Origin: Bacteroidota bacterium
GTDB lineage: Bacteria > Bacteroidota > Ignavibacteria > UBA10030 > SZUA-254
DNA length: 49,762 bases
Direction: 5' to 3'
Assembly (NCBI GenBank): GCA_020056225.1
Contig: JAGVIE010000020.1
Coordinates: 70,331 to 120,092 of the forward strand
How positions within the stretch are numbered: the first letter of the stretch is position 1; the number at the start of each line of letters is the position of its first letter. Below are positions 16,889 through 34,056 of this stretch, piece after piece. The position numbers and the translations under genes are program-made. Under the pieces are notes generated by a model. It did not search any database. It had not been told where the DNA came from and saw only the letters and a list, made by a program, of their open reading frames with translations.

Positions 16889-18193
16889 TTATTTCTCCAA
16901 TTCGTCTGTTCTAAGTTTAACTCCGATAAGTTTTAAAAATTCTGAGGGCAACTCTCCCCCTGCAAAAACAAATACAAAATCGTTCGTAATCACTTTTTGT
17001 TCATGGTTTGCTTCCTGTAAAACAACACTATCAGTCTGAATCTGAGTGACTTGCGATTTAAATAACATGCTTAGTTTTCCCTCTTTTTTCATTTCCAGAA
17101 TGTTTTTTTCATTACGCTCCTTCAAACGGAAAAATTCTTCTTTACGATAACTTATTATCACTTTATTGCCGGGTTGACGCGCAAGTCCAACTGCTGCCTC
17201 GATTGCACTATCGCCGCCACCCACAACTAAAATATGCTTACCGGTAAAAGATTCCGCATCAAAGAGTCGATAAAATACTTTGGGCAGATTTTCACCCGGT
17301 ACATTCAACTTGCGCGGAGTCCCGCGCCTCCCCATCGCAAGAACTATACTGGATGCGGTATACTGCCCGCTATTAGCCAATATCTGAAACTTATTTCCAT
17401 CTTTCTGTATTGAAAGAACTCTGTCTCCGGTACGAACGTCAAGTTGATACTTTTGAACAAGTCCGTGAAAAAGATCGAGTAATTTTTCCTTACTGATTTC
17501 TGAAATCTGCAATTTTCCAAAGAGAGGCAACTCTACAGGGGAAGTTAGAACGAGTTTCTGTCGCGGGTAATGAAGTATCGATCCGCCAAGATCATCCTGT
17601 TCAAAAATGATAGAGCGGAGTTGATGATACTTAGCACTAAGACCGGCAGAAATACCTGCTGGTCCGGCACCTATGATAGCGATATCTGCATCAATATTTT
17701 TGTTCGGCTGAATATTTGAAGCGATATGACTAACCGCTTTTATACTGTGTGAGAAAGCATTTCTAATAAGTCCCACACCGCCGAGTTCACCAACAATGTA
17801 GAGACCTTCTATGTTCGACTGATAATGTTCATTGTAGAATGGAATTTCCATCCCCTGTTTTGGTTTTCCAAAACCCATCGTGATACCGCCAACAGGGCAA
17901 GCATCTGCACATAGAGCATGTCCAATGCACCTTGCACCGTTAATAATTGCCGGCTTTCCATTGACCATGCCGAGTACATTCTCGGGACAAGCTTGTACGC
18001 ATCCACCACATCCAATACATGATAACATGTCTATCCGAGGATGAAGAGTTGCCGGTTCTGTCATACCGGCATTAACATTTTTTTCATGCATCTTTCTTAT
18101 CAGCTTCTTCTTTTTCCCCACGATCAGCCAGTACGGTACGGCTATAACAAGAACGAGAAAAATAAATATGAGAAGAGAGAATACAGTTTCCAT
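16889..18193 (-). CDS. Membrane-anchored ferredoxin/FAD NAD(P)H oxidoreductase
   Basis: The 434-residue product has one N-terminal membrane helix (residues 4-26) and a basic stop. A two-cluster ferredoxin domain follows: C59-x2-C62-x2-C65-x3-C69, then C89-x2-H92-x2-C95-x3-C99, where His replaces the second Cys. A thioredoxin-reductase-like part comes next, with IIGAGPAGISAG (173-184) for FAD and VVGGGDSAIEAA (about 323) for NAD(P)H. The redox CxxC of thioredoxin reductases is missing. It probably moves electrons between NAD(P)H, flavin and Fe-S clusters at the inner face of the membrane. It is the last gene of the cytochrome operon; its ATG shares one base with the barrel stop (TGATG). Confidence 0.8.
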   Translation of the reverse strand: METVFSLLIFIFLVLVIAVPYWLIVGKKKKLIRKMHEKNVNAGMTEPATLHPRIDMLSCIGCGGCVQACPENVLGMVNGKPAIINGARCIGHALCADACPVGGITMGFGKPKQGMEIPFYNEHYQSNIEGLYIVGELGGVGLIRNAFSHSIKAVSHIASNIQPNKNIDADIAIIGAGPAGISAGLSAKYHQLRSIIFEQDDLGGSILHYPRQKLVLTSPVELPLFGKLQISEISKEKLLDLFHGLVQKYQLDVRTGDRVLSIQKDGNKFQILANSGQYTASSIVLAMGRRGTPRKLNVPGENLPKVFYRLFDAESFTGKHILVVGGGDSAIEAAVGLARQPGNKVIISYRKEEFFRLKERNEKNILEMKKEGKLSMLFKSQVTQIQTDSVVLQEANHEQKVITNDFVFVFAGGELPSEFLKLIGVKLRTDELEK

Positions 18194-19281
18194 CAGAATT
18201 TTTTGCGGATTTCGGCGAGAAAAATATAACCATCAGAGGCATGCCCAATAAAACGTTCCACACTTCCCCACAAGGTTATGGACTTGAATATGTTTGTAAA
18301 GATATCGAGTGAATACGATGTGTAAACCAATAAGTCACCGGTTCGTGATATCGTATTGCGATTCACCTGATATCGTAGTGATGCATCGAGCAAATTGAAA
18401 ATATTTTTCTGCACACTCAATCCATAAATTTTTGACTTAGCGTATTCGGTCGAGTTCAATGACACAGAAAACCGTGATGTGAACCCAGAATTAAAAGCAT
18501 TAGAAAAATTGACTGAAGAATAATTTAGATATTCTTTACCAAGTTGACCGGAGACCAGGCGGGGCGAGTAATTGTTATAGATTGATATGCCATAAGGTAA
18601 CCACACGTTAATATTAACATTCGGTGTAGTACGAATTCTTAAATCGAGAAGAGAATCCGGGATTGTTCGGATTGAAGCGAATGAATAGGACGGTCTCCAC
18701 ATAACTAAACCTGCACCTATTACAATTGTAGATGGAAAGCGATAATCAACATTCGCATTGAAAAGAGCGGGTTTTGGTGATAGAATGTATTCAGTTTCAG
18801 ATTTCATTCGCAAATCAAGATCGCACAGCGCGCTAATGCTCAATCGTTCAAGAGGAAATATTCTGAAGGATCCGCTTAAAGACTCACGATTAAGAAGAGA
18901 GCCGTAATATGATCGAGCATAAGAAATACTTAACGATGGATGCAGTATACTGTTTGTGGAATATGATCCAAATACAGCCGCTTTTTTAATGTTTGAGGAA
19001 AATGTTCGTTGTGTATATCCCGGTTCAAATCCGGCGACTAAACCAAACGTCAAACCATCAGAAGTTCTGAGAGCCATTAAACCGTCAACGTATCCGATCC
19101 CCGGAGAATATGTTGGTACAATTCGTCCTATGGAAATAATATTTGTTCCATCATTGAATGAAAGTGAAAATCTATAAATCCTCGAACGGTCGATACCTTT
19201 GGAGGAAAAAGGACTTAAATTACCTTGGTATAACTGTCTAAGGTTAGCGTAGATTTCAAAGCTAGCCGGTATCCCGGTCAA
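18193..19281 (-). pseudogene. Outer-membrane barrel, downstream part after an in-frame amber codon
   Basis: This 362-codon frame encodes alternating amphipathic strands with Gly/Tyr/Asn turns and ends in a strand finishing with Phe (EIRKKF), as outer-membrane barrels do. Its nominal start is a TTG inside a continuous strand (GRL-TGIPASFEIYANL). There is no signal peptide or ribosome binding site, and the 23 codons before it back to the TAG at 19353 also read as barrel strands. It is in the same frame as the upstream 148-codon piece. It is therefore best read as the main part of one roughly 534-codon gene, 19797-18193, interrupted by TAG. The predicted role is the outer-membrane sleeve for the multiheme cytochromes. 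Confidence 0.7.
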
Positions 19282-19350
19282 CCTGCCGGTGAGATTAATG
19301 ATGCCACCAGATTGTGAATATTTAAAATTAGTTACTGAGGAGGTAGTACC

Positions 19351-19353
19351 CTA
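19351..19353 (-). other. In-frame TAG codon splitting the barrel gene
   Basis: The minus strand reads ...GGATTGCAATAT-TAG-GGTACTACC.... Both sides are in one frame and both encode barrel-like strands. TAG ends other genes here (rpiB, the SDR gene), so general amber recoding is unlikely. A point mutation, an assembly error or local readthrough remain. Confidence 0.75.
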
Positions 19354-19797
19354 ATATTGCAATCCGACTGAGCCATGGATTAATAACCAGCTATAAGATG
19401 ATGATTGGATGCTGTCTTTACCGACAGAGTCCGTTACAACAATTATTGGTTTGGAATCAATTACGGTTTCTATGGGATAATCGATTGATGAACTTTTGGT
19501 TTCACTGATGAGCGGAATAAAAATCAATGCATCTCCAACCTTCAAATCTCTTTTCTTATCAAGAATAGTGCAGACTGATGTTTTTGAACTCGTGGCAAAA
19601 ACTTTCAGAACTGCAATAGTATCATTACCTGAAAAAGCAATAATTAAGCTCGAGTCAATAACACCGGCATCTCTTCCCAAAGATGTATATACAACACCTG
19701 ATGAAATGTAAGTAATGCGACCAGTGATAACGGATTTCTGCCCGTAGGCAGATAATGCGAAAACAAAAAAGATGAGTATGAATGTAATACTTTTCAT
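19351..19797 (-). CDS. Outer-membrane barrel, signal peptide and N-terminal domain (split by amber)
   Basis: A 148-residue frame with a clear signal peptide (MKSITFILIFFVFALSAYG-Q) and a small beta domain (VITGRITYISSGVVYTSLGRDAGVIDSSLI...TSVCTILDKKRDLKVGDAL), similar in layout to the SH3-like N-terminal domains of some Bacteroidota surface proteins. The final residues SSYSWLLIHGSVGLQY look like the first barrel strand, cut by TAG at 19353-19351. The same frame then continues for 386 sense codons. The start overlaps the 22-heme cytochrome stop in ATGA, fixing it within the operon. As it stands the product would be a free periplasmic domain; an intact gene is expected in relatives. Confidence 0.7.
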   Translation of the reverse strand: MKSITFILIFFVFALSAYGQKSVITGRITYISSGVVYTSLGRDAGVIDSSLIIAFSGNDTIAVLKVFATSSKTSVCTILDKKRDLKVGDALIFIPLISETKSSSIDYPIETVIDSKPIIVVTDSVGKDSIQSSSYSWLLIHGSVGLQY

Positions 19798-21464
19798 TTT
19801 ACGTTTTCATGGCATCTAAAACACTCGGAACTCAAGTAAACATAATTTCCAACATCAGTATGTTTTGCATTCATGTCTGTTTGATTGTGCTCATGGCAAT
19901 CAACACATGAATACTGTTTATAATCGGACTGAGTAGTGTGGCAATCCGTACATAGTGTCCATCTCCCCTGATGCGCTCCTGAATAGATTCTGAAATATTG
20001 CTGATCATGATTAAAGGTTGAAGGAGACCAGGCAGAAGTTGAATGACAGGGTGAACAATCATGCGGGAAATTGGCAACTGCATGATTAGGATCCGTCGGT
20101 CGAATGTAATCATCCTGATGACAGGCATAACAGTCAGAGTACGTGAGCTGATAATTGTCGCCTGTGTGGCAGGACAGACATTGTGTAGTGGTATGCTGAC
20201 CGGTTAATGGAAATTTCGTTATCGAATGATCAAACGTTGCCGGACTCCATGAATCAGTAGAATGACATTTAGAACAATCTGTATCATAGTTTCCGGCAAG
20301 ATGATTTGGATTATTCGTATTCTGATAATCGTTTTGATGACATGAATAGCAACCGCTGTAAACAAGCTGATAATTACCGTTTAAATGGCAAGATTGGCAT
20401 GTAATTGTTTTGTGTTTACCTGTCAAATCGAATTTTGTAGTAGAATGATCGAATGTTGCAGGCTCCCAAGAATCTGTAGAGTGACACTGGGAACAATCGG
20501 TACTGAACCCTCCGGTAAGATGGTTCGGATTGATCACATTCTGATAATCGGTCTGATGGCATGTATAACAGCCGCTATAGACAAGCAGATAATTGCCATT
20601 AATGTGACAAGATTGGCATGAAATTGTTCTATGTTTACCGGTTAGATTAAATTTTGTTGAAGCATGATTAAACGTTGATGGAGTCCAAGCAGCGGTTGAA
20701 TGACACATCTGGCAAGCATGACTCACTCCTGCAGAAACATGATCAAATGAAACAGCGGTTGTGAAATCTGCTGAGTGGCAGTTGAAACACTCACTTGAAA
20801 GATTCCTGAATTGATTGTTCTTATGGCATTGTATACAAATAATTGCACGATGAGCACCGGTTAACGGAAATGCAGTCAGCGAATGATCGAAGCTTCCACC
20901 CCAACTTAAAGCTGTAAAATTATGACAATTCCGGCAGTCAACAGGGAATAGTTCTTTGACATGACTTGGATTTAAAGTCGCTCTATAATCATGCTCATGA
21001 CAACCTATACAAGTGATCGGTGTTCCTGCGAAGCGATAGGTTGATGCACGCTCATGACAGGCACTGCAATCCAACTGGGCATGCTTACCAAGCAGTGGAA
21101 ATCTAGTTTGCTGATGCTTTTGTTTCATATCCGTGATTATCCATGAATTCATATCATGGCAACGTTTACACTCATTACCGAGTTCCGATCGGTGAACATC
21201 AATATGACAAGCGGTACATTCGGAATTTTGCCGTACGAACTTTAAATCATTGTGGCAAGATTTACATGGAACATTCTTGTGGTATCCTATGAGAGAAAAA
21301 CCGGTCGAATTATGATTGAATATTGTACTATCACTCAGCTTCCAGGATGTTGTTGAATGACATTCCCCACAAGGTCGATTTAGTTTCCCGTGAGGAGATT
21401 GCGACTTTTGTGCGTTGATGTTTGTAACGCCTACTAATATGGCGAATATAATAAATCGTATCAT
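19794..21464 (-). CDS. Exported 22-heme cytochrome c
   Basis: From the ATG at 21464, which overlaps the upstream stop in ATGA, the product is 556 residues with a signal peptide (MIRFIIFAILVGVTNINA). I count 22 CxxCH heme-binding sites across its whole length, about one per 25 residues, with many extra His (FDHS, TGKH, NPNH) placed to serve as second axial ligands. No catalytic domain is visible, so electron transfer along a heme wire is the likely function. The middle contains three tandem 73-residue units with three hemes each. It lies between the 20-heme cytochrome and the barrel gene. A longer start at 21488 is possible but overlaps more. Confidence 0.9.
   Translation of the reverse strand: MIRFIIFAILVGVTNINAQKSQSPHGKLNRPCGECHSTTSWKLSDSTIFNHNSTGFSLIGYHKNVPCKSCHNDLKFVRQNSECTACHIDVHRSELGNECKRCHDMNSWIITDMKQKHQQTRFPLLGKHAQLDCSACHERASTYRFAGTPITCIGCHEHDYRATLNPSHVKELFPVDCRNCHNFTALSWGGSFDHSLTAFPLTGAHRAIICIQCHKNNQFRNLSSECFNCHSADFTTAVSFDHVSAGVSHACQMCHSTAAWTPSTFNHASTKFNLTGKHRTISCQSCHINGNYLLVYSGCYTCHQTDYQNVINPNHLTGGFSTDCSQCHSTDSWEPATFDHSTTKFDLTGKHKTITCQSCHLNGNYQLVYSGCYSCHQNDYQNTNNPNHLAGNYDTDCSKCHSTDSWSPATFDHSITKFPLTGQHTTTQCLSCHTGDNYQLTYSDCYACHQDDYIRPTDPNHAVANFPHDCSPCHSTSAWSPSTFNHDQQYFRIYSGAHQGRWTLCTDCHTTQSDYKQYSCVDCHEHNQTDMNAKHTDVGNYVYLSSECFRCHENVK
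20049..20705 (-). repeat. Three tandem 219-bp units in the 22-heme cytochrome
   Basis: Three in-frame units of exactly 73 codons run CHST(A/D)(A/S)W...TKF.LTG.H...C.SCH...NY.L.YS.CY.CHQ.DY...NPNH...DCS. Each carries three heme sites. The first two units are the most alike and the third has diverged. The array looks like growth of a heme wire by internal duplication. Confidence 0.85.
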
Positions 21465-23131
21465 TGGACGATTCCTTTTTGATGACATGATTCGCAGGAA
21501 ATTTCCAAAGGTTTGAAGCGAATAAACTGCAATTTCCCGTCTTTTTCAGATTTATGACATGATGAACACGATACATTCAAATGCTTACCGGTGAGTTTAA
21601 ATTTACTCTGTGTTTCGTGATTGAAGATTAGCGATCTCCAACCTTCAGCCGTATGGCATTTGAAGCAGTTTGTTTTACCAGACTCGCTAAACTGCCCTAT
21701 ATGCGGATCAACATGGCACGATTCACAATCGGATGGTATTTTTTTAAAAACAACTTTACCAGATAAAATATCGGCAGCTTTATGACATTTAGCACATCCA
21801 ACATTTTTGTGACGACCTGTGAGCGAAAATGCGGTGATTGAATGATCAAACGATGCGTTCCTCCATCCTGTTGTGACATGACAATTCCCACAACTTTTTT
21901 CTTTCATAATCGAAGTGAAAGCACCGCCATGAATATCCTTGTGGCACGATTCACACAAAATATTTGTAAAACGAAATATTGGAATCTCAGATTCTTTTTT
22001 ACGATGACAACTATTACATGGTATAGCCGCGTGCGCCCCATTAAGCGGGAAACGTGTGGTCGTGTGTTTTTCCAGTGAATAAGTGCTTAGCTTAAATCCA
22101 CTAAGAGAATGACATACCGAGCAATCGTTTTTATAAGAGCGCATGAATACTCCATCGTGCTTATCAGAATGGCAATCTGTACAATTATTATGATCTCGTT
22201 TAAAGCGGGCTTTAAAATCCTGTTTATCAGTCTTCGAATGACATTTCTCGCATTTTATTTCTTTATGCATGCCCGTAAGTTTATATCTGGTCATATCATG
22301 ATTGAACTGATTATTCGATGCTTCTCCCCATCCCACCGGTGAATGACAGCTTGAACAAATTTTCTCATTCAAAAATGAGTTGTGTGGAGATTGATGGCAC
22401 GGTTTGCAATCTGTAAAATCATTTTTTATTAAAGTGATTTTACCATCGTGGCTATTCTCATTCATTGATGGATGACATTTACTGCATTTGGTTTGCAGAT
22501 GTTTTCCAATTAATGGGAATTTTGTACGAGTATGATCTAAGCGGCTTACTTTTTTCCATCCGTCTGGAGTGTGGCAAGAAGAACACTCCTGACCGAATTT
22601 GTTTTTATGAGGATCAGGATGGCAAGATATACAAGCATGAGTTAATCCGAGATACGTCTTGCGTTTACTTTTTTCCAAAATTTTCTTTATGGTCATATCT
22701 TTGCGATATATCGAAGAATGACACTTCTCGCAACTGATAGAAGAATGTTTCCCAGACAGATTAAATCCAGTTTTAATGTGATCAAATTTATTCTCTTCGA
22801 AAAGGACTGTTTTCGATTCACGACCTAAATGTTCTTTATGACATTTTACGCAAGACTCCGTGGCTGTAACACCGTGATACCCGTGTTTTTCTTTCCTAAG
22901 AATTTGAATTTCCTCGTGGCAGGTGAGGCATTTCGCTCCACTGATTTCCGAACCCACTTCATGGCAGTTTGTGCAATTCTGTGAACCATCAAGATGCTGG
23001 TGAGAATTCGAAAGATCACCTGGAGAAAACTGAGCAAAAAGATTTATAGTAATGAATCCCAAGAAAAATAGTTGATAAAAAAATAGAGAACAAGATATCC
23101 TTGACAAAAACATTTTATTCATTTGTGGCAT
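21461..23131 (-). CDS. Exported 20-heme cytochrome c
   Basis: The 556-residue product from the ATG at 23131 starts with a signal region (LSRISCSLFFYQLFFLGFITINLFA). It holds 20 CxxCH sites and abundant spaced His, in repeated blocks of the form SCH...GW...FDH..T.F.LTGKH...C.KCH. The blocks resemble those of its 22-heme neighbour but are less regular, so the two are distant paralogs. The start is chosen because its ATG shares one base with the stop of the cytochrome b gene (TGATG); codons 4, 7 or upstream 23143 are alternatives. It is probably a periplasmic or surface electron carrier fed by the membrane cytochrome b. Confidence 0.9.
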   Translation of the reverse strand: MPQMNKMFLSRISCSLFFYQLFFLGFITINLFAQFSPGDLSNSHQHLDGSQNCTNCHEVGSEISGAKCLTCHEEIQILRKEKHGYHGVTATESCVKCHKEHLGRESKTVLFEENKFDHIKTGFNLSGKHSSISCEKCHSSIYRKDMTIKKILEKSKRKTYLGLTHACISCHPDPHKNKFGQECSSCHTPDGWKKVSRLDHTRTKFPLIGKHLQTKCSKCHPSMNENSHDGKITLIKNDFTDCKPCHQSPHNSFLNEKICSSCHSPVGWGEASNNQFNHDMTRYKLTGMHKEIKCEKCHSKTDKQDFKARFKRDHNNCTDCHSDKHDGVFMRSYKNDCSVCHSLSGFKLSTYSLEKHTTTRFPLNGAHAAIPCNSCHRKKESEIPIFRFTNILCESCHKDIHGGAFTSIMKEKSCGNCHVTTGWRNASFDHSITAFSLTGRHKNVGCAKCHKAADILSGKVVFKKIPSDCESCHVDPHIGQFSESGKTNCFKCHTAEGWRSLIFNHETQSKFKLTGKHLNVSCSSCHKSEKDGKLQFIRFKPLEISCESCHQKGIVQ

Positions 23132-24000
23132 CAAAATATCCATCTATACCCAAGTAAAATTACAACAACAACATGAACGATGAGGGTGACAAACATAATA
23201 ATGGTAAACGGTAAATGAATAAGATGCCAATTATGAAAGAACCGCTCGACCTGTCCAAGCACAAACGTTTTTTGAGTCAAAGCTGCTCTTGCAAGAGCAG
23301 CATGTTTAAGAGGCAGGGCGGCCTCGGGTGCAATTTTATTCCATGATAAGATTTCATGAATTTTACCCCGCACTTGAATCTTAGATTTTTCAAGTCTAAT
23401 GATCGTTACTATGGTTTGCCAGAAAGTTTGAGGGGGTTGAAATCCAGTAAAAGATCTGTCAATCGTTTGCCTTAAAAATATTCCAACAGGATATTCCTGC
23501 AGAACTTCAGCAATATTTTTCATTTCCGATTCAATCTCTTCCATTGTCAGTTGTGTGCCATTGAGATTGCGCGGGATAAGGACATACAAAAATCGACCAA
23601 TTATTCCGCTCATTGTCACTGAAAGCATAGTCCAGAGAGTAATCGCCGCAATACCACCCGACTTGAACGTAGTATGATAGATGATAAATATCGGACCAAG
23701 TAAACATAGGATGATATGAAAATGCAACCAGTTGGCTAACAAACCAAAAGAGCGAAGTCTATTAATTCTCTTGCGAAATGAATAAGAACCTACACCGATA
23801 ATTATCATGAGCGAACCCGCTATTCCAAGTCCATGGCTAAAAACACCCGAAGGTTTCATTGTTTGATAATCTGGACGAAATGCCCTTAACGCAATTGGTG
23901 TATCGTAATAATTCCAGCCATTAAATGTCAAGAGAACTATCATAAAACCGCATAAGGCAAGAAGAATAATTGGGAAATAGTTTCCTATAACTCGTTTCAT
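23131..24000 (-). CDS. Integral membrane di-heme b-type cytochrome
   Basis: The 289-residue protein has about five hydrophobic helices (near residues 10-28, 54-74, 90-110, 118-140 and 260-284). Two helices carry His pairs 14 positions apart: His95/His109 and His262/His276. This is the bis-His, two-heme spacing of bc1-type four-helix bundles. The loop between residues 150 and 250 is cytoplasmic-looking and charged. It would pass electrons between the quinone or flavoprotein side and the exported multiheme cytochromes. It is the first gene of the operon; ATG at 24000 is preferred over a TTG at 24015. No quinone-site motif can be named with confidence. Confidence 0.75.
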   Translation of the reverse strand: MKRVIGNYFPIILLALCGFMIVLLTFNGWNYYDTPIALRAFRPDYQTMKPSGVFSHGLGIAGSLMIIIGVGSYSFRKRINRLRSFGLLANWLHFHIILCLLGPIFIIYHTTFKSGGIAAITLWTMLSVTMSGIIGRFLYVLIPRNLNGTQLTMEEIESEMKNIAEVLQEYPVGIFLRQTIDRSFTGFQPPQTFWQTIVTIIRLEKSKIQVRGKIHEILSWNKIAPEAALPLKHAALARAALTQKTFVLGQVERFFHNWHLIHLPFTIIMFVTLIVHVVVVILLGYRWIF

Positions 24001-26545: not shown

Positions 26546-28675
26546 ATGATTAATCAAACAGTTTCTCATTATAAAATACTAGAAAAGCTCGGCGAGGGCG
26601 GGATGGGTGTCGTATATAAGGCACAGGATCTCAAACTCGATCGTTACGTAGCCATTAAGTTTCTCCCAGCCCATCTGTCTTCCTCAGAAGAAAACAAATC
26701 TCGCTTTCTCCAGGAAGCAAGAGCCGCCGCCGCCCTGAACCATCCCAATATTCTCGGGGTGTATGAAATTGATGAGCCGGACGGAAAGATATTCTTCGCA
26801 ATGGAGTATGTCGAGGGAATGACGCTTAAGAAATATATTACGAATCTGAAATCAGGAAAAGGCATACCGATCATCCAGGCATTGGAGTGGACAATTCAAA
26901 TAACACAAGGACTCAAAGCCGCCCACGGCAAGGATATTGTACACAGGGATATCAAGCCGGAAAATATCATGGTAGCAAACGATGGCAAGTTAAAGATTAT
27001 GGATTTCGGAATTGCGAAGCTCAAGAGCAGCTCCGGATTTACGAAAATAGGGACATCGATGGGAACACTTTCGTATATGTCGCCGGAACAAGCGCAGGGT
27101 GAGGCGGCTGATCAGAGATCAGACATTTGGGCTCTCGGTGTGGTGCTTTATGAAATGTTAACCGCAGATCTGCCATTCAAGTCCGAACACGAGGCGGGTC
27201 TTTTGTACTTGATTGTGAATGAGGAGCCACCCGTACCCAGTCTAATGGACAGAAAAATTCCTCACCAGATAGATACGCTCACTAAGAAAATGTTGGCAAA
27301 GGAAAGATCACAGAGATATCAAAATATGGATGAAGTTCTCCAAGCACTTCAGGATACCAGACGAGCAGTTGAAACCGCCACGGTGCAGCCGCAGATAAAA
27401 GCAATTGCCGTACTTCCGTTTGGAAACATTAGTCCCGACAAGGAAAGCGATTACTTCAGCGATGGTCTTACGGAAGAACTTATCATCAATTTGTCGAGGT
27501 TGAAAGATATCCGTGTTGTTCCTCGAACAACATCAATGCAGTACAAAGGAACAACGAAAGAAGTCAAGGCGATCGGGAGGGAACTTGCAACTCGGTATAT
27601 TTTGGCAGGAAGCGTTAGAAAATTTCAGGATAATCTTCGTATTGCAGTTGAGTTGGTCGACATTGAAGCCGATGCTCAACTTTGGGCAGAGACCTACAAG
27701 GGCAAGCTTGCGGATGTCTTTGACATTCAGGAACAAGTATCGAAGCAAATTGTCGATGCACTGATGGTGAAACTCACACCGAAAGAGCAAGTTGAGCTTA
27801 CAAAACGTTCCACGTTAAACACTCAAGCGTTCGATTGCAATCTTCGGGCGAGAGATTCATTGTACCGATTTACTAAAACCAGCGTGCAAACAGCGATCGA
27901 ACTTTTTCGCAAAGCAATTGAATACGACGGACGTTATGCAGACGCTTATGCAGGTATGAGTGAAGCGTATGCTCACCTCTACCAGCAGTTCGACAGAAAT
28001 GATGCATGGCTGGATAAGGCGTTGGAGGCTGGTCTGAAAGCATTGATGTACGACCCTTCGTTATCAGAAGCGTATTCTGCTCTAGGGCTGGTATATCTTT
28101 ATAAAAAATCACATGATGAAGCTTTAGAATCGAGCAAAAAAGCGATCGAGTTAAATCCGAGTAACCATATCGCATACTGGATTCTGGGCAGAACCCACAG
28201 AACAACGGATCACAATCGTGAAGCCGCTGAACTCTTTAAGAAAGTGATAGAACTTAGCCCGGATTTCTATGCAGCATACGGTGATCTTATCCTGTGTTAT
28301 GATGTTCTGAGAGAAAAAGAAGAATTGAACAAGTGGGTTGTAATTTCAAATCAGATGTTTCCTCGATACCTGTCTCTCCATCCTGATGACGCGCGCGCCC
28401 ACATCTTTTTTGCTATTTCGTTGGTTCGAGCTGGACGGATTGAAGACGCGAAAATTAAAGCAGCTCGCGCAATTGAATTAAGTCCAAACGATCCACTGAT
28501 GTTTTATAATGCGGCTTGTTTTTATTCGAGTGTGGGCGATAAACCTCTTGCACTGCAATCTCTCAAAGATGCTATTTCCGCAGGGTATGGTTTTTATGAA
28601 TGGATCAAACGAGATCCGGATCTCGACAACATCCACGATGAACCGGAGTATATTGAAATGATGAAAGGGAAATAA
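26546..28675 (+). CDS. Soluble Ser/Thr protein kinase with FlgO-like and TPR domains
   Basis: Residues 8-270 are a Hanks-type kinase: GEGGMGVVYKA (16-26), Lys38 in VAIKFL, catalytic Asp135 in HRDIKPEN, DFG at 153-155, and GTLSYMSPEQ in the activation region. Residues about 287-400 form a FlgO/TolB-N-like domain (IAVLPFGNISPDKESDYFSDGLTEELI...YILAGSVRKF), as found in bacterial TPR-adenylate cyclases. The remainder holds TPR helices (ALEAGLKALMYDPSLSEAYSALGLVYL and similar). Unlike the next two kinases, no membrane helix separates kinase from effector half, so this one should be cytoplasmic. It is probably cotranscribed with the ABM-like gene. Confidence 0.9.
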   Translation: MINQTVSHYKILEKLGEGGMGVVYKAQDLKLDRYVAIKFLPAHLSSSEENKSRFLQEARAAAALNHPNILGVYEIDEPDGKIFFAMEYVEGMTLKKYITNLKSGKGIPIIQALEWTIQITQGLKAAHGKDIVHRDIKPENIMVANDGKLKIMDFGIAKLKSSSGFTKIGTSMGTLSYMSPEQAQGEAADQRSDIWALGVVLYEMLTADLPFKSEHEAGLLYLIVNEEPPVPSLMDRKIPHQIDTLTKKMLAKERSQRYQNMDEVLQALQDTRRAVETATVQPQIKAIAVLPFGNISPDKESDYFSDGLTEELIINLSRLKDIRVVPRTTSMQYKGTTKEVKAIGRELATRYILAGSVRKFQDNLRIAVELVDIEADAQLWAETYKGKLADVFDIQEQVSKQIVDALMVKLTPKEQVELTKRSTLNTQAFDCNLRARDSLYRFTKTSVQTAIELFRKAIEYDGRYADAYAGMSEAYAHLYQQFDRNDAWLDKALEAGLKALMYDPSLSEAYSALGLVYLYKKSHDEALESSKKAIELNPSNHIAYWILGRTHRTTDHNREAAELFKKVIELSPDFYAAYGDLILCYDVLREKEELNKWVVISNQMFPRYLSLHPDDARAHIFFAISLVRAGRIEDAKIKAARAIELSPNDPLMFYNAACFYSSVGDKPLALQSLKDAISAGYGFYEWIKRDPDLDNIHDEPEYIEMMKGK

Positions 28676-28679
28676 ATAA

Positions 28680-31343
28680 TTGGTCGGACAAACAATTTCT
28701 CATTACAAGATTCTCGAAAAGTTAGGCGAGGGTGGTATGGGTGTTGTGTACAAAGCGGAAGATACAAAATTAGACCGCTATGTTGCCCTCAAGTTTCTTC
28801 CAGTCCAATTGAATACCTCAGAGCAAGATAAAGCCAGATTTCTCCAGGAAGCAAAATCTGCCTCTGCATTGAATCATCCGAATGTTTGTACCATTTATGG
28901 AATTGATGAATTTGAAAATCAGCAATTCATCGAAATGGAGTTGGTGGACGGTGTTACACTGCGTGACAAAGTCGCTGAATTTCAGGTATTAAACATAAAG
29001 CAAGTTATTGAGTATGGCGTTCAAATTGCTGAAGCGCTGCAAGAAGCCCACAGCAAAGGAATCATTCACCGTGATATCAAATCAGAGAATATCATGGTGA
29101 ATTCCAAAAACCAAATTAAAGTGATGGATTTTGGTTTGGCAAAGTTGAAAGGTTCTTTGAAACTGACAAGAACGTCCAGCACGATTGGAACACTTGCGTA
29201 TATGTCGCCGGAGCAGATACAAGGAATTGAAGCAGATATGCGGTCTGATATCTTTTCCTACGGAGTGGTATTATTCGAAGTGACAACTGGAAAGATGCCG
29301 TTTCGAGGTGAACACGAAGCGGCGATCATGTATTCCATTGTGAATGAAGAACTTGAAGATGCATTAATGTATCGAGAAGATATTCCGTCAGAGTTGCTTC
29401 ATATTTTGAAAAAATCTCTTGAAAAAGATCCTGAAGATCGCTACCAATCGATGGCTGAGATTATTGTTGATCTTCGACGCCTGAAGAAAGAATCGACAAG
29501 AGTAGTTAGAACTCAAGAGTTTCAACGACCGGAACAAAACAGATCGAATATTTTATCACCGACACCGCAAGCACCAAAAAATACATTCCTCTCAAAAAAA
29601 TATTTGGCAGGCTTTGGTATCGCAATTGTTCTTGTAATTGGTGTTTTTCTTTTTAAAGATTCGATCACATCGAGTATTGCCGGGAGTAATGATAAAAAAA
29701 TAATCGTCGTTCTCCCGTTTGAGAATCTCGGACCAAACGATAAGGATTATTTTGTTGATGGAATGACCGACGAGATAACGAGCAGGTTATCAGGACTTTC
29801 TGGGTTAAAGGTTATCGCACGATCGAGCGCAGTACAATATAAGGGCACAACAAAAACCATAAAGCAGATCGGAGCAGAGCTTGGCGTGAACTATGTGTTA
29901 CAGGGAACGGTTCGGTGGGAAGCAACTGGGGGTCAGACAAACGTCCGTGTGAATCCGACGCTAATCAGAGTGGATGATGGAACACAAGCATGGTCGGAAT
30001 CAATGGAATCGGTGCTTTCAAGCGCATTCAAACTGCAATCCGATATTGCCAGCAGGGTTGCCGGTGCTATGGATATTGCTTTGGCTACGACAGAACAGAA
30101 ATTGCTGGAAACTTCTCTTACTGAAAATTCGGAAGCATACGATTATTATCTTCAAGCCATTGAGTATTCAAATAGAAGTGTTTCGAAATCCGACCAAGAA
30201 ATTGCCATCCAATTATTAGACCGTGCAATACGACTTGATCCATCATTTGCTGCTGCCTTTGCTAAACTTGCAAAGATACATGCAAGTATCTATTGGTTTT
30301 TCTACGATCGGTCTGAGCGTCGTGTTGAACAATCACGTTTAGCCGGAGAAAAAGCAATTCAACTTACCCCGCAGCTTTCCGAAACCCATGAAGCTATGGG
30401 ATGGTATTTTTATCATACAAAACTTGATTATTCAAAAGCATTGGGAGAGTTCTCTCTCGCCCTTTCGTATAGACCAAGTAATTCTACTGTTTATTACGGC
30501 ATTGCAGCGGTCATGCGTCGTCAGGGAAACATACGCGGCTCAATTGAAGCGTTTGAGAAATCAATAGAAAGCAATCCCCGCGCATCGGATATTATTCGAC
30601 AACTTGGAGAAACACAAACGTTGTCGCGAGAGTACGAAAAAGCTGAGCGTAATTTTGATAAATCACTTGAACTGACCCCTGATATCACAGCGACCTATTG
30701 GGATAAGGCGAGGAATCTTTTGTTATGGAAAGGTGATATCGATGGTTCACGATGCATTTTTGAAGAGGCTCGAAGAGTGGGAAAAATTAACGAATCAGAA
30801 TTTATTGTTGACTATATGAGCTATTTTATTGAATTGATGGATCGGAATTTCCAAGCCGCTGAGAACGCAATAGACCGCGCAAATACGAAGGAATTGTTGA
30901 ATGATCAATTCAGTTATGCTCCTACAAGTCTCCTTCGTGCACAGATGGAAAGTATTTGTGGGAACGAATTGCAGGCAAAAAAATATTATGACAGTGCAAG
31001 AGTATTTCTGGAATTGAAGCAAAAAGCTAATCCAGCCGACGAACGACTCTCTAGTGCTCTTGGCCTTGCATACGCAGGATTGGGTCGCAACAAAGAGGCG
31101 GTGATTGCAGGAGCACACGGTGTTGAAATGCTTCCCGTTGAAAAAGAGGCGTGGCGCGGATCATTCCGTCTCCATGATCTTGCAAAGATTTATGCTATGG
31201 TTGGTGAACATGAAAAAGCTATTGATATACTTGAGCGGCTGTTATCGATCCCATGTGAAGTGTCCGTTTCATTATTGAAGATTGAACCGTGGTGGCAATC
31301 GCTGCACAATAATGAACGATTTCAAAAATTAGTGGCGGGATAA
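28680..31343 (+). CDS. Membrane Ser/Thr protein kinase with FlgO-like and TPR domains
   Basis: The 887-residue product starts at TTG 28680, five bases after the previous stop; the alignment with its two paralogs from the second residue on supports this start. The kinase domain (8-270) has GEGGMGVVYKA, Lys38 and catalytic Asp132, but the catalytic loop reads HRDIKSEN with Ser in place of the usual Pro. One membrane helix at about 307-326 leads to a FlgO-like domain (340-460: IIVVLPFENLGPNDKDYFVDGMTDEIT) and a long TPR array to the end. The TPR half should lie outside the inner membrane as a sensor or scaffold. It is a paralog of the preceding kinase. Confidence 0.9.
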   Translation: MVGQTISHYKILEKLGEGGMGVVYKAEDTKLDRYVALKFLPVQLNTSEQDKARFLQEAKSASALNHPNVCTIYGIDEFENQQFIEMELVDGVTLRDKVAEFQVLNIKQVIEYGVQIAEALQEAHSKGIIHRDIKSENIMVNSKNQIKVMDFGLAKLKGSLKLTRTSSTIGTLAYMSPEQIQGIEADMRSDIFSYGVVLFEVTTGKMPFRGEHEAAIMYSIVNEELEDALMYREDIPSELLHILKKSLEKDPEDRYQSMAEIIVDLRRLKKESTRVVRTQEFQRPEQNRSNILSPTPQAPKNTFLSKKYLAGFGIAIVLVIGVFLFKDSITSSIAGSNDKKIIVVLPFENLGPNDKDYFVDGMTDEITSRLSGLSGLKVIARSSAVQYKGTTKTIKQIGAELGVNYVLQGTVRWEATGGQTNVRVNPTLIRVDDGTQAWSESMESVLSSAFKLQSDIASRVAGAMDIALATTEQKLLETSLTENSEAYDYYLQAIEYSNRSVSKSDQEIAIQLLDRAIRLDPSFAAAFAKLAKIHASIYWFFYDRSERRVEQSRLAGEKAIQLTPQLSETHEAMGWYFYHTKLDYSKALGEFSLALSYRPSNSTVYYGIAAVMRRQGNIRGSIEAFEKSIESNPRASDIIRQLGETQTLSREYEKAERNFDKSLELTPDITATYWDKARNLLLWKGDIDGSRCIFEEARRVGKINESEFIVDYMSYFIELMDRNFQAAENAIDRANTKELLNDQFSYAPTSLLRAQMESICGNELQAKKYYDSARVFLELKQKANPADERLSSALGLAYAGLGRNKEAVIAGAHGVEMLPVEKEAWRGSFRLHDLAKIYAMVGEHEKAIDILERLLSIPCEVSVSLLKIEPWWQSLHNNERFQKLVAG

Positions 31344-31347
31344 ATTT

Positions 31348-34056
31348 ATGATTGGGCAGATGATATCTCATTATAAAGTTCTTGAAAAATTAGGCGAAGG
31401 CGGCATGGGCGTGGTGTATAAAGCTGAAGACACCAAGCTTGACCGCACCGTCGCACTGAAGTTTCTTCCAACCCAATTGAATGCCTCAGAGCAAGATAAA
31501 GCCAGATTTCTCCAGGAAGCAAAAGCTGCCGCGGCACTGAATCATCCCAATGTATGCTCAGTGATGGATATTCAAGAGCATAATGGACAAGTTTTTATAG
31601 TCATGGAGTTTGTAGATGGACAAACGTTGCGGGAGAAGGAAGGCACTTTCACATTTAAACAAGCGATCGATATTGGGATTCAAATTGCAGATGGACTTGC
31701 TGCTGCACACGAAAAAGGCATAGTCCACCGCGACATCAAACCAGAAAATATCATGATCCGCAAAGATGGCATTGTACAGATCATGGATTTTGGGTTGGCT
31801 AAACTTCGTGATGCCGGAAGCAAGATTAATCGTCTTACCAAAGAAGGTTCTACAGTTGGCACAGCGGGTTACATGAGCCCCGAGCAAGTTCTGGGACAGG
31901 ATGTTGACCACAGAAGCGATATTTTCTCACTCGGAGTTGTTCTTTATGAATTATTCACCGGACAGCTTCCTTTCAAAGGGGTACATGAAACGGCAATGGC
32001 GTATGAAATTGTTAATATTGATCCAGCCCCAATGTCGTCCATTAAACCTGAAATTGATCCTGGTTTTGATGAGATTGTGCTTGAATGTTTAGAGAAAGAT
32101 ATTAATGAACGGATGCAATCGGTTAAGCAGGTCTCGATCAATCTCAAACGATTCCGAAGAGAATCCAGTAAGCAGCGCCTCAGCCGTGTTACCACATCCC
32201 GTTCAATTCCTAAAATTGCCAGTGTTGAGCCAATTGAAACCGCGTCAAGAACCTCTCGTTTACAACCGTGGAAGTGGTTAACAATTCTTTTCATCATTAC
32301 AACAATCAGTTCTATTTTCTATTATTACTATTTCGCAGACACGCGAGTACACAAACAGGTAATCCGGGCATCTATTCCTTTGCCTGAAAAATCTTCACTG
32401 AGCAATGAACGTGGAGGCGGTCATATTGCATTGTCACCGGATGGGCGGAAGTTAGCATTTGTAGCTGTAGACTCTTCCGGAATAAATAATCTATGGCTCC
32501 AGTCACTTAATGCTTTGTCGGCTCAGATGTTGTCGGGAACAGAAACTGCTCAGTTTCCTTTCTGGTCTCCGGATTGTAAAACAATCGGTTTTTTTGCCGA
32601 CGGAAAACTCAAAAAGATTGACGCTGCCGGAGGAACGCCGTTTACAATCTGCGATGCGGCAGATCCGCGGGTTGGTACATGGAGTCAGGCAGGAGTCATT
32701 GTTTTCGGACTCGGTTCCACCGGCGCAATGTATCAGGTCTCTGCCGCCGGCGGCACATCATCGCCTGTGACTAAATTGGATAGCACACGAAATGAACAAA
32801 CACATCGCTGGCCCTACTTCTTACCTGACGGCAAACATTTTTTGTTTTTCATTCGCACAACCGCTGCCGGCAGTGGAAGCGGGAACGATTCAATTTGTGT
32901 CGGGTCGATAGAATCGAGGGAAGTCAAACACCTCTTCAATGGCGCTTCGGACGCGGCATACGCGCAAGGGTATCTACTTTTCATACGCGAATCAGCTCTT
33001 ATGGCTCAGCTGTTCGATCTCAAGACGCTTGACGTTTCCGGTGAACCCATCCCAATCGTACAGCAAATTCAATACGATGCCCGGTTCAGTAAAGCTACCT
33101 TTTCTGTTTCTCAGAACGGACTTCTTGTATATCAATCTTACGGCACAAGGTGGAAACGTGAACTTGCCCTCTTTGACAGCAGTGGAGTAAAACTTATTTC
33201 CTTTGGTCAACCCGAAATTTTTCAAAGCGCCAGTCTCTCGCATGACGGAAAACGAATCGCAATGGAAGTAGTCGATCTCCAATCGCATAACATTGATCTC
33301 TGGTTATATGAAATTGAGCGAGGCATTCAAACCAGATTCACATTTGATCTAGCGCCTGACATGGCTCCACTTTGGTCGCCAAACGGTGACCGTATTGTCT
33401 TCAGTTCTAAACGGAAAACTCATCATGATCTTTACCTGAAAACTACCACAGGTTCAGTCCCCGAAGAATTGCTGAGTGATTTTGGCGACGGAGACAAATA
33501 TGCCGATGACTGGTCATCCGATGGCAACTATATTCTATTGGAGATAACGAATGATCCAAAAACAAAAAATGATTTATGGATTCTACCGATGACAGGTGAC
33601 CGAAAACCGATTCCTTTTCTTCAAACAGAATTCAATGAACAGAGCGGAGTTTTTTCTCCAGACATGCACTGGGTAGCATATGTCTCTAATGAATCAGGGA
33701 AAGACGAGGTCTATGTTAGGCCATTCATCGAACCGGGCTTACAACAAGCTTCGGCTTCATCAGGCAAGTGGCAGATATCGGCAAATGGCGGTCTCAGACC
33801 CAGTTGGAGATCTGATGGAAAGGCAATTTTTTATGGCGCAGATAATAAAATTATGACGGCAGAAATCAGAGCGATCGGTTCGACCTTTGAGGTTCTTAAG
33901 GTTACTCAGCACATGGATTTACAGGCAAAGCGTCAAATTGCCGCATCAGACATTTCGTCAGACGGTAAGAGAATTCTCGGCTCAATTATTCCCTCTCAAG
34001 AAAAATCAACTCCGCTTACACTCGTCGTGAATTGGGATGAAGAGTTGAAGAAATAA
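31348..34056 (+). CDS. Membrane Ser/Thr protein kinase with WD40-like (PD40) beta-propeller
   Basis: Residues 8-270 form a kinase with GEGGMGVVYKA, Lys38, catalytic Asp129 in HRDIKPEN, and DFG near 147. A membrane helix follows at about 310-330. The extracytoplasmic part (340-902) is a TolB/PD40-type beta-propeller with repeated LSPDGRKLAF, WSPDCKTIGF, SHDGKRIAM, WSPNGDRIVF and SSDGKRIL blades. Such kinases are thought to sense ligands through the propeller. The first 70 residues are nearly identical to the previous kinase, while the outer half is unrelated, which shows a domain-swap history. It lies five bases downstream of the second kinase, in one transcription unit. Confidence 0.92.
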   Translation: MIGQMISHYKVLEKLGEGGMGVVYKAEDTKLDRTVALKFLPTQLNASEQDKARFLQEAKAAAALNHPNVCSVMDIQEHNGQVFIVMEFVDGQTLREKEGTFTFKQAIDIGIQIADGLAAAHEKGIVHRDIKPENIMIRKDGIVQIMDFGLAKLRDAGSKINRLTKEGSTVGTAGYMSPEQVLGQDVDHRSDIFSLGVVLYELFTGQLPFKGVHETAMAYEIVNIDPAPMSSIKPEIDPGFDEIVLECLEKDINERMQSVKQVSINLKRFRRESSKQRLSRVTTSRSIPKIASVEPIETASRTSRLQPWKWLTILFIITTISSIFYYYYFADTRVHKQVIRASIPLPEKSSLSNERGGGHIALSPDGRKLAFVAVDSSGINNLWLQSLNALSAQMLSGTETAQFPFWSPDCKTIGFFADGKLKKIDAAGGTPFTICDAADPRVGTWSQAGVIVFGLGSTGAMYQVSAAGGTSSPVTKLDSTRNEQTHRWPYFLPDGKHFLFFIRTTAAGSGSGNDSICVGSIESREVKHLFNGASDAAYAQGYLLFIRESALMAQLFDLKTLDVSGEPIPIVQQIQYDARFSKATFSVSQNGLLVYQSYGTRWKRELALFDSSGVKLISFGQPEIFQSASLSHDGKRIAMEVVDLQSHNIDLWLYEIERGIQTRFTFDLAPDMAPLWSPNGDRIVFSSKRKTHHDLYLKTTTGSVPEELLSDFGDGDKYADDWSSDGNYILLEITNDPKTKNDLWILPMTGDRKPIPFLQTEFNEQSGVFSPDMHWVAYVSNESGKDEVYVRPFIEPGLQQASASSGKWQISANGGLRPSWRSDGKAIFYGADNKIMTAEIRAIGSTFEVLKVTQHMDLQAKRQIAASDISSDGKRILGSIIPSQEKSTPLTLVVNWDEELKK

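Follow-up and report, generated by a model that had tools for sequence, protein, structure and literature searches.

The window considered here, a stretch of 49,762 nucleotides from a Bacteroidota bacterium (assembly GCA_020056225.1, contig JAGVIE010000020.1, positions 70,331 to 120,092), carries between positions 16889 and 24000 of its minus strand a cassette of five genes in the order cytochrome b, 20-heme cytochrome, 22-heme cytochrome, barrel gene and iron-sulphur (Fe-S) flavoprotein, the last hereafter called FP. Our subject is this cassette, its likeness to the porin-cytochrome conduit PCC3, and the partnership of FP with its cytochrome b. The five genes and the one interruption among them are the following:

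23131..24000, minus strand: cytochrome b, a PCC3-type inner-membrane protein of 289 amino acids, from its motifs and conserved His residues
21461..23143, minus strand: exported 20-heme cytochrome c of 560 amino acids, likely the periplasmic wire (20 CXXCH; PF14522/PF14537)
19794..21464, minus strand: exported 22-heme cytochrome c of 556 amino acids from the ATG at 21464, likely surface-side (22 CXXCH)
18193..19797, minus strand: outer-membrane beta-barrel gene of 534 codons, interrupted (predicted model, PDB matches)
19351..19353, minus strand: in-frame TAG at codon 149 of the barrel gene, inside the first predicted barrel strand (from reading the frame)
16889..18193, minus strand: FP, a membrane-anchored Fe-S flavoprotein of 434 amino acids (Fer4 and Pyr_redox_3 domains)

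Start and stop codons overlap at all four junctions, as TGATG between cytochrome b and the 20-heme gene (where the alternative start of the latter at 23131 creates the overlap) and between the barrel gene and FP, and as ATGA between the two cytochrome c genes and between the 22-heme gene and the barrel gene. The first-pass annotation had described five translationally coupled genes, with such overlaps at every junction, 42 c-type heme sites and a barrel protein at 18-19 kb; the overlaps, the layout and the heme count (20 + 22 CXXCH) are as described and the barrel is indeed predicted as such, but its reading frame is split, the TAG at 19351-19353 having been overlooked, so that one of the five coupled genes is interrupted in this assembly. 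The genes for cytochrome b, both multiheme cytochromes and FP are all open in the window.

The heme-binding motifs of the two cytochromes are far beyond chance, since 1000 residue shuffles of each protein gave three CXXCH at most. The 20-heme protein, with a signal-like N-terminus as judged by eye, has 45 His and 28.0 amino acids per heme, and its counterpart keeps 20 hemes in 15 of the 16 listed relatives and has 23 in the remaining one; at E 0.001 a single-sequence search found no related solved structure for it, no profile search having been made. The 22-heme protein (48 His, 25.3 amino acids per heme) belongs to a more variable position, its counterparts ranging from 22 to 58 hemes across 15 listed relatives. 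Second cytochromes found beside FP and cytochrome b elsewhere can be larger still, with 75 CXXCH in L081 (1-5950, the open reading frame reaching the edge of the stretch), 70 in L111 (from 13122) and 67 each in L122 (2214-7307) and L129 (from 2208).

In the cytochrome b, two WX3HX13H motifs begin at residues 91 and 258 and an SGXXG motif at 131, a hydropathy scan gives five hydrophobic stretches, and no Pfam or NCBIfam family matches at E 0.01. His95, His109, His262 and His276, invariant in all 42 aligned sequences (window included), are likely the ligands of two b-hemes; the full motif set is present in 63 of the 72 sequences checked, again with the window included, and partial in the other nine. 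By the positive-inside rule, the long loop of the protein would lie on the cytoplasmic side together with FP, which would place His95 and His262 near the inside and His109 and His276 near the outside. A profile built solely from cytochrome b sequences of the window's phylum matches the Gallionella protein of locus L057 at 118 bits.

FP itself is composed of four parts, listed here from its N-terminus:

18119..18175, minus strand: transmembrane helix, residues 7-25, followed by GKKKK (hydropathy scan; helix 2-42 in the model)
17876..18037, minus strand: two-cluster ferredoxin-like domain, C59-x2-[C/S/T]-x2-C65-x3-C69 and C89-x2-H92-x2-C95-x3-C99
17714..17812, minus strand: segment with GELGG, preceding the GxGxxG of the FAD site, C-terminal in enzymes like thioredoxin reductase (TrxR)
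16904..17692, minus strand: FAD/NAD(P)H-binding core (PF13738/PF07992; structural match to YpdA)

The basic GKKKK behind the helix makes it likely that the rest of FP is cytoplasmic. Across 69 aligned rows, window included, C59, C65, C69, C89, H92, C95 and C99 are invariant, and position 62 is Cys in 31, Ser in 29, Thr in seven and another residue in two; the second motif has H92 where its second Cys would stand, which points to a cluster with a His ligand. The AlphaFold2 (AF2) model of FP (pLDDT 90.3) has YpdA and TrxR as its best listed folds, residues 166-432 superposing on residues 1-269 of YpdA/Bdr (Z 23.4, rmsd 4.8, 264 aligned). When the GELGG segment was moved behind the core, the match to the YpdA profile grew from 1-265 to 1-289 of 316 positions and from 170.5 to 182.5 bits, a modest gain, which supports reading FP as a putative circular permutation of the TrxR/YpdA fold; a literature search combining circular permutation with TrxR and Fe-S gave no match. 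The redox cysteine of YpdA we take to lie in a GPCG motif, where FP reads GPAG, and the 69 rows have Ala (64) or Ser (5) at this position. As the seven Cys residues of the window's FP all fall within the Fe-S motifs, a disulfide substrate appears unlikely. Membership in the YpdA or TrxR families was rejected, the redox cysteine being absent and the scores lying below the NCBIfam cut-offs (TIGR04018, 174 against 339.9 bits; TIGR01292, 91.7 against 343.45 bits). The permuted flavoprotein module recurs in another membrane setting, in a protein of about 830 amino acids (L022-L028; for example L046 5932-8412), which joins it to a NapH-like membrane Fe-S part, with Fer4_5 and Fer4 domains in L046, the sole one checked.

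How regularly FP accompanies this cytochrome b was surveyed in three sets of genomes. Among 198 genomes of the phylum, the window's own included, FP matches at 1e-40 occur in 24, of which 18 have the short form and six the ~830-aa protein alone (G066 carries both). Full-length matches to the cytochrome b profile, which includes sequences of these cassettes and therefore matches them by construction, were found in the same 18 short-FP genomes and in one further genome, G140, where a cytochrome b fragment followed by a barrel tail (L140 8014-9136) is left of a decayed cassette whose FP and cytochromes are lost; Fisher's test for the association gives p 1e-24, ignoring shared ancestry. The second set comprised 80 genomes from the family to which a Gallionella metagenome-assembled genome (L057/G223) belongs; sequences of this genome are part of both profiles. 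At E 1e-60 for FP and 1e-20 for cytochrome b, FP was found in 35 and cytochrome b in 33 genomes, all 33 among the 35 (Fisher p 2e-20, with shared ancestry again ignored), and the pair lies within 1.5 kb in 29 of the 33, 5.6 kb apart in one, 821 kb apart in another and on different contigs in two. Third, a scan of named genomes gave at least 539 loci encoding some relative of FP, and in the best 80 of these, some of them cut by contig ends, cytochrome b is encoded in 66, a protein with at least eight hemes in 64, and both in 60; for 14 loci without cytochrome b, the genome encodes one elsewhere in eight cases (this genome-wide check covered 26 of the 80 locus genomes). According to the record titles, the named loci span Bacteroidota and relatives, Proteobacteria, Acidobacteria, Planctomycetota, Nitrospirae and Gemmatimonadota, as well as Calditrichota, Neomarinimicrobiota and others.

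The closest tie between the two proteins is found in five planctomycete loci among these best 80 (L094, L110, L119, L124 and L125), where FP and cytochrome b form one open reading frame of 743-866 amino acids with FP placed before the first transmembrane helix of the cytochrome, an arrangement that fits placement on the cytoplasmic side. In 61 unfused loci with cytochrome b, FP lies on the same strand in 37, is divergent in 19 and is otherwise placed in five. Co-occurrence, adjacency and gene fusion together back the putative link from NAD(P)H to the conduit that had been suggested from the window alone.

All 17 short-FP relatives in the phylum show the cassette, some incompletely. Cytochrome b is present in all 17 (in G014 via profile search only), as is the 20-heme protein (broken into 5 and 14 motifs in L034); as to the second cytochrome, L032 has a 10-heme one only and the locus L035 runs off its contig, and BLAST identified the barrel in 11 relatives, its position served to assign it in five, and in one it lies off the contig. 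The genes are clustered rather than scattered, an outcome in favour of the first-pass interpretation, and they follow one of two arrangements: cytochrome b, 20-heme protein, second cytochrome, barrel and FP, as in the window, or cytochrome b, FP, 20-heme protein, second cytochrome and barrel. In either order a TPR protein may follow cytochrome b; this protein of about 200 amino acids, with an N-terminal hydrophobic stretch, was seen in eight relatives (L031, L034, L037, L038, L040 and L043-L045, Pfam checked in L038) and is absent from the window.

Two observations bear on the mobility of the cassette. The plasmid pEMTOL02 of the cultured Emticicia oligotrophica DSM 17448, the sole plasmid record matching at 1e-50, bears it whole (L146, NC_018749.1 73215-92432), with cytochrome b (WP_015031196.1), FP (WP_015031197.1), a 23-heme and a 40-heme cytochrome, the barrel and an adjoining ccsA; the annotation of FP there says no more than NAD(P)-binding domain protein. 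In the nearest relative, G172 (locus L029), the neighbours of the cassette differ from those in the window. Uncorrected synonymous differences between the two are 0.36-0.41 for the four core genes, 0.68 for FP and 0.70 and 0.75 for two housekeeping genes; measured against these two control genes only, the four core genes seem to have passed between the two genera more recently than FP did.

In the window the barrel gene falls into two parts. Its first part (19351-19797) encodes 148 amino acids with a start that by eye resembles a signal peptide, and its second part (18193-19281), in the same frame, 362 amino acids from a TTG without a signal-like start. Two working genes were considered and rejected: behind the TAG the frame offers no ATG, GTG or TTG before 19281, nothing signal-like begins the second part, and relatives have the gene in one piece. 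With the TAG read as Gln and the protein aligned with 27 relatives, AF2 predicts 22 beta strands within residues 141-533 (pLDDT 78.7, pTM 0.63), in favour of the barrel put forward in the first-pass annotation. Two PDB searches listed 50 matches each, every one an outer-membrane barrel, with ushers, TonB-dependent receptors and Occ porins (best Z 20.1) among them; neither MtrB nor another conduit porin is named among the 50 listed, which is no evidence against kinship.

If the TAG is real, the barrel copy of this genome is broken, and a barrel profile search of the genome returned a single match, the one with the TAG. That the window holds a decaying copy, with the TAG as a genuine nonsense mutation and no conduit made across the outer membrane, is the strongest alternative, to which we give somewhat less than an even chance. 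The stop stands in frame in the only barrel copy found, and decay of a cassette is documented in G140. G172, by comparison, has an intact barrel with CAA (Gln) at this codon, and the ratio of nonsynonymous to synonymous change (dN/dS) between the two barrels is 0.35 before the TAG and 0.18 after it, which indicates that the stretch behind the stop was constrained until recently, although over this distance such a ratio is no means of dating a stop that arose recently. Together with the open state of the other four genes, this constraint indicates that the change is either a recent mutation or an error of assembly; a PCC3 porin of Leptothrix was reported to be split by a sequencing error (PMC5566968).

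Taking the genes together, we think it probable that the cassette is a PCC3-type electron conduit across the whole envelope, in which FP is the cytoplasmic entry (or exit) of electrons. The analysis shows which genes are present and in what order, their motifs and predicted folds, their co-occurrence and the fusions; from these we infer cofactor occupancy, complex formation and electron flow along the following path. Electrons from NAD(P)H would pass to the FAD and on to the Fe-S clusters of membrane-anchored FP, from these to the inner-side b-heme (His95/His262) and the outer-side b-heme (His109/His276) of cytochrome b, and then over the 20-heme wire across the periplasm to the barrel with its 22-heme cytochrome, where they could meet an acceptor, or come from a donor, outside the cell. 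We lean slightly towards outward flow over uptake, since NAD(P)H donates electrons strongly and their passage out of the cytoplasm runs with the membrane potential.

Several observations weigh against this interpretation. In the phylum, 36 more genomes have weak partial matches to the cytochrome b profile (best 1.7e-16, mostly frames of about 200 amino acids), and these are a shorter kind of cytochrome b without short FP. In the Gallionella family, two of the 35 genomes with FP have no cytochrome b (in one of them, G229, a contig end cuts FP), ten of the best 80 named loci encode neither cytochrome b nor a protein with at least eight hemes, and six of the 14 loci without cytochrome b are in metagenome-assembled genomes, of unstated completeness, where none was found. 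The variable strand of FP indicates that the cassette is not one operon everywhere, and its synonymous divergence, at background level, suggests a partly separate history from the four other genes. In this assembly the TAG leaves no complete barrel, and no other copy was found; the proposed steps of electron transfer are drawn from sequence and predicted structure; and PCC3 is called functionally unverified in published text.

Less probable than a decaying copy, and on the whole unlikely, is a quinone-linked conduit, in which the quinone pool would be the electron partner of cytochrome b and FP an accessory acting on another pool or tuning the cytochrome. He et al. proposed a quinone-active cytochrome b for PCC3 by analogy with bc1 and hydrogenase subunits (PMC5566968), and the 19 divergent placements of FP would be compatible with an accessory; against this, the planctomycete fusions and the near-complete co-occurrence in two genome draws point to direct coupling of FP and cytochrome b. 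It is very improbable that FP serves cytochrome c maturation or thiol redox chemistry as a TrxR-like enzyme outside the conduit: YpdA/TrxR is its best match in sequence and fold and ccsA, a cytochrome c biogenesis gene, adjoins the Emticicia cassette, but FP has Ala or Ser at the position of the YpdA cysteine, bears two Fe-S motifs and is fused to the conduit's own cytochrome b.

FP as the cytoplasmic terminus of a PCC3-type conduit would have practical consequences. A regular NAD(P)H-type flavoprotein partner offers a concrete entry point into how PCC3 meets cell metabolism and, if true, predicts an electron path that does not need quinone; with 66 of the best 80 of at least 539 loci encoding cytochrome b, FP can serve as a marker gene for such conduits; and the whole plasmid cassette of the cultured Emticicia strain makes the system open to testing.

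Other features of the window and its genome are added here for completeness. Upstream of the cassette, on the opposite strand (26546-34056), three tandem serine/threonine-kinase-like genes have C-terminal parts that by eye resemble TPR or WD40 repeats. The genome encodes a haem-copper oxidase and also another multiheme cluster (L141, G000:C18:5000-24000), in which a 13-heme protein fused to cytochrome b561 is accompanied by a 19-heme protein, two NapC-like proteins of 6 and 8 hemes, and genes that, judged by eye, likely encode Fe-S, NrfD-like, Rieske and cytochrome b proteins.

The known system closest to the cassette is PCC3. As described by He et al. 2017 (PMC5566968), this putative complex, a type known from iron-oxidising bacteria, consists of four proteins, found in Alpha-, Beta- and Gammaproteobacteria: a porin with up to 42 transmembrane regions, an extracellular cytochrome (median 34 hemes), a periplasmic cytochrome (median 21 hemes), both kinds of cytochrome having 22-39 amino acids per heme, and an inner-membrane protein of about 300 amino acids that has SGXXG, two WX3HX13H motifs and five transmembrane helices. 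A survey of Gallionellaceae also treats PCC3 (PMC10734462). The window's cytochrome b matches in length, in its five hydrophobic stretches and in all three motifs; its 20-heme cytochrome corresponds in heme number to the ~21-heme periplasmic one, its second cytochrome may be the counterpart of the extracellular one of variable heme number, and both lie inside the published range of amino acids per heme. Gene order agrees as well, the Gallionella locus L057 reading cytochrome b, 21-heme cytochrome, 27-heme cytochrome and a porin-sized open reading frame, with FP divergent beside them; the window's barrel profile gave no match to this porin-sized frame. With its gene order, its numbers of hemes, the residues that each heme takes up and the motifs of its cytochrome b, the core of the cassette is best classed as PCC3, the barrel being a candidate relative of the larger Proteobacterial porins, and a brand-new type of conduit was rejected, four of the five genes fitting the published one. 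The cassette differs from it in the 22 predicted strands of the barrel, in FP as fifth member and in belonging to the Ignavibacteria side of Bacteroidota.

What PCC3 does in cells has been approached through expression. On Fe(II), both PCC3 clusters of Sideroxydans lithotrophicus ES-1 were down, not up (PMC8788666), which argues against PCC3 acting simply as an Fe(II) oxidase there, and in Sideroxydans CL21 the PCC3 clusters were reported to be expressed above the mean. The trans-envelope conduit put forward in the first-pass annotation gains backing from homology and gene order shared with PCC3; its further remark that the cassette matches no standard Mtr or Pcc operon holds for Mtr and for the Geobacter Pcc, whereas four of the five genes do fit PCC3.

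MtrCAB/MtoAB and the Geobacter OmbB-OmaB-OmcB conduit also combine a porin with multiheme cytochromes across the outer membrane, a plan they share with the cassette. Their cytochromes differ from the 20- and 22-heme proteins described here, being decaheme in MtrCAB/MtoAB and of 8 and 12 hemes in Geobacter, and the test for MtrA-type decaheme proteins (TIGR03508) gave 43.2 bits against a cut-off of 192.2. We know of no flavoprotein/cytochrome b pair of the FP kind in either system. YpdA/Bdr and the thioredoxin reductases have the FAD/NAD(P)H fold in common with FP residues 166-432; FP, unlike them, is permuted, carries a transmembrane helix and two Fe-S motifs, and lacks the redox cysteine.

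A likeness of the PCC3 cytochrome b to ferric reductases (FRD) was noted by He et al. (PMC5566968). The cassette resembles NADPH oxidase (NOX) and FRD systems in that a cytochrome b with two HX13H pairs is fed by an NAD(P)H flavoprotein, a likeness of plan and not of membership, for the flavoprotein is of another family, an Fe-S relay stands between, and the output goes to a multiheme wire. In the PCC3 literature searched, mostly passages, with supplements and most subscription journals beyond reach, FP is not mentioned as a part of PCC3; set against these sources, FP as a regular fifth member, fused to cytochrome b in planctomycetes, and the extension of PCC3 to this branch of Bacteroidota both look new. 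We would give even odds to the broadest interpretation, that PCC3 is a five-component machine across many phyla with NAD(P)H itself as electron source or sink and the quinone pool bypassed, in which a circularly permuted flavoprotein with a His-ligated Fe-S cluster would be joined through a transmembrane diheme cytochrome b to a wire of at least 40 hemes, so that a NOX-like plan would reach across the outer membrane.

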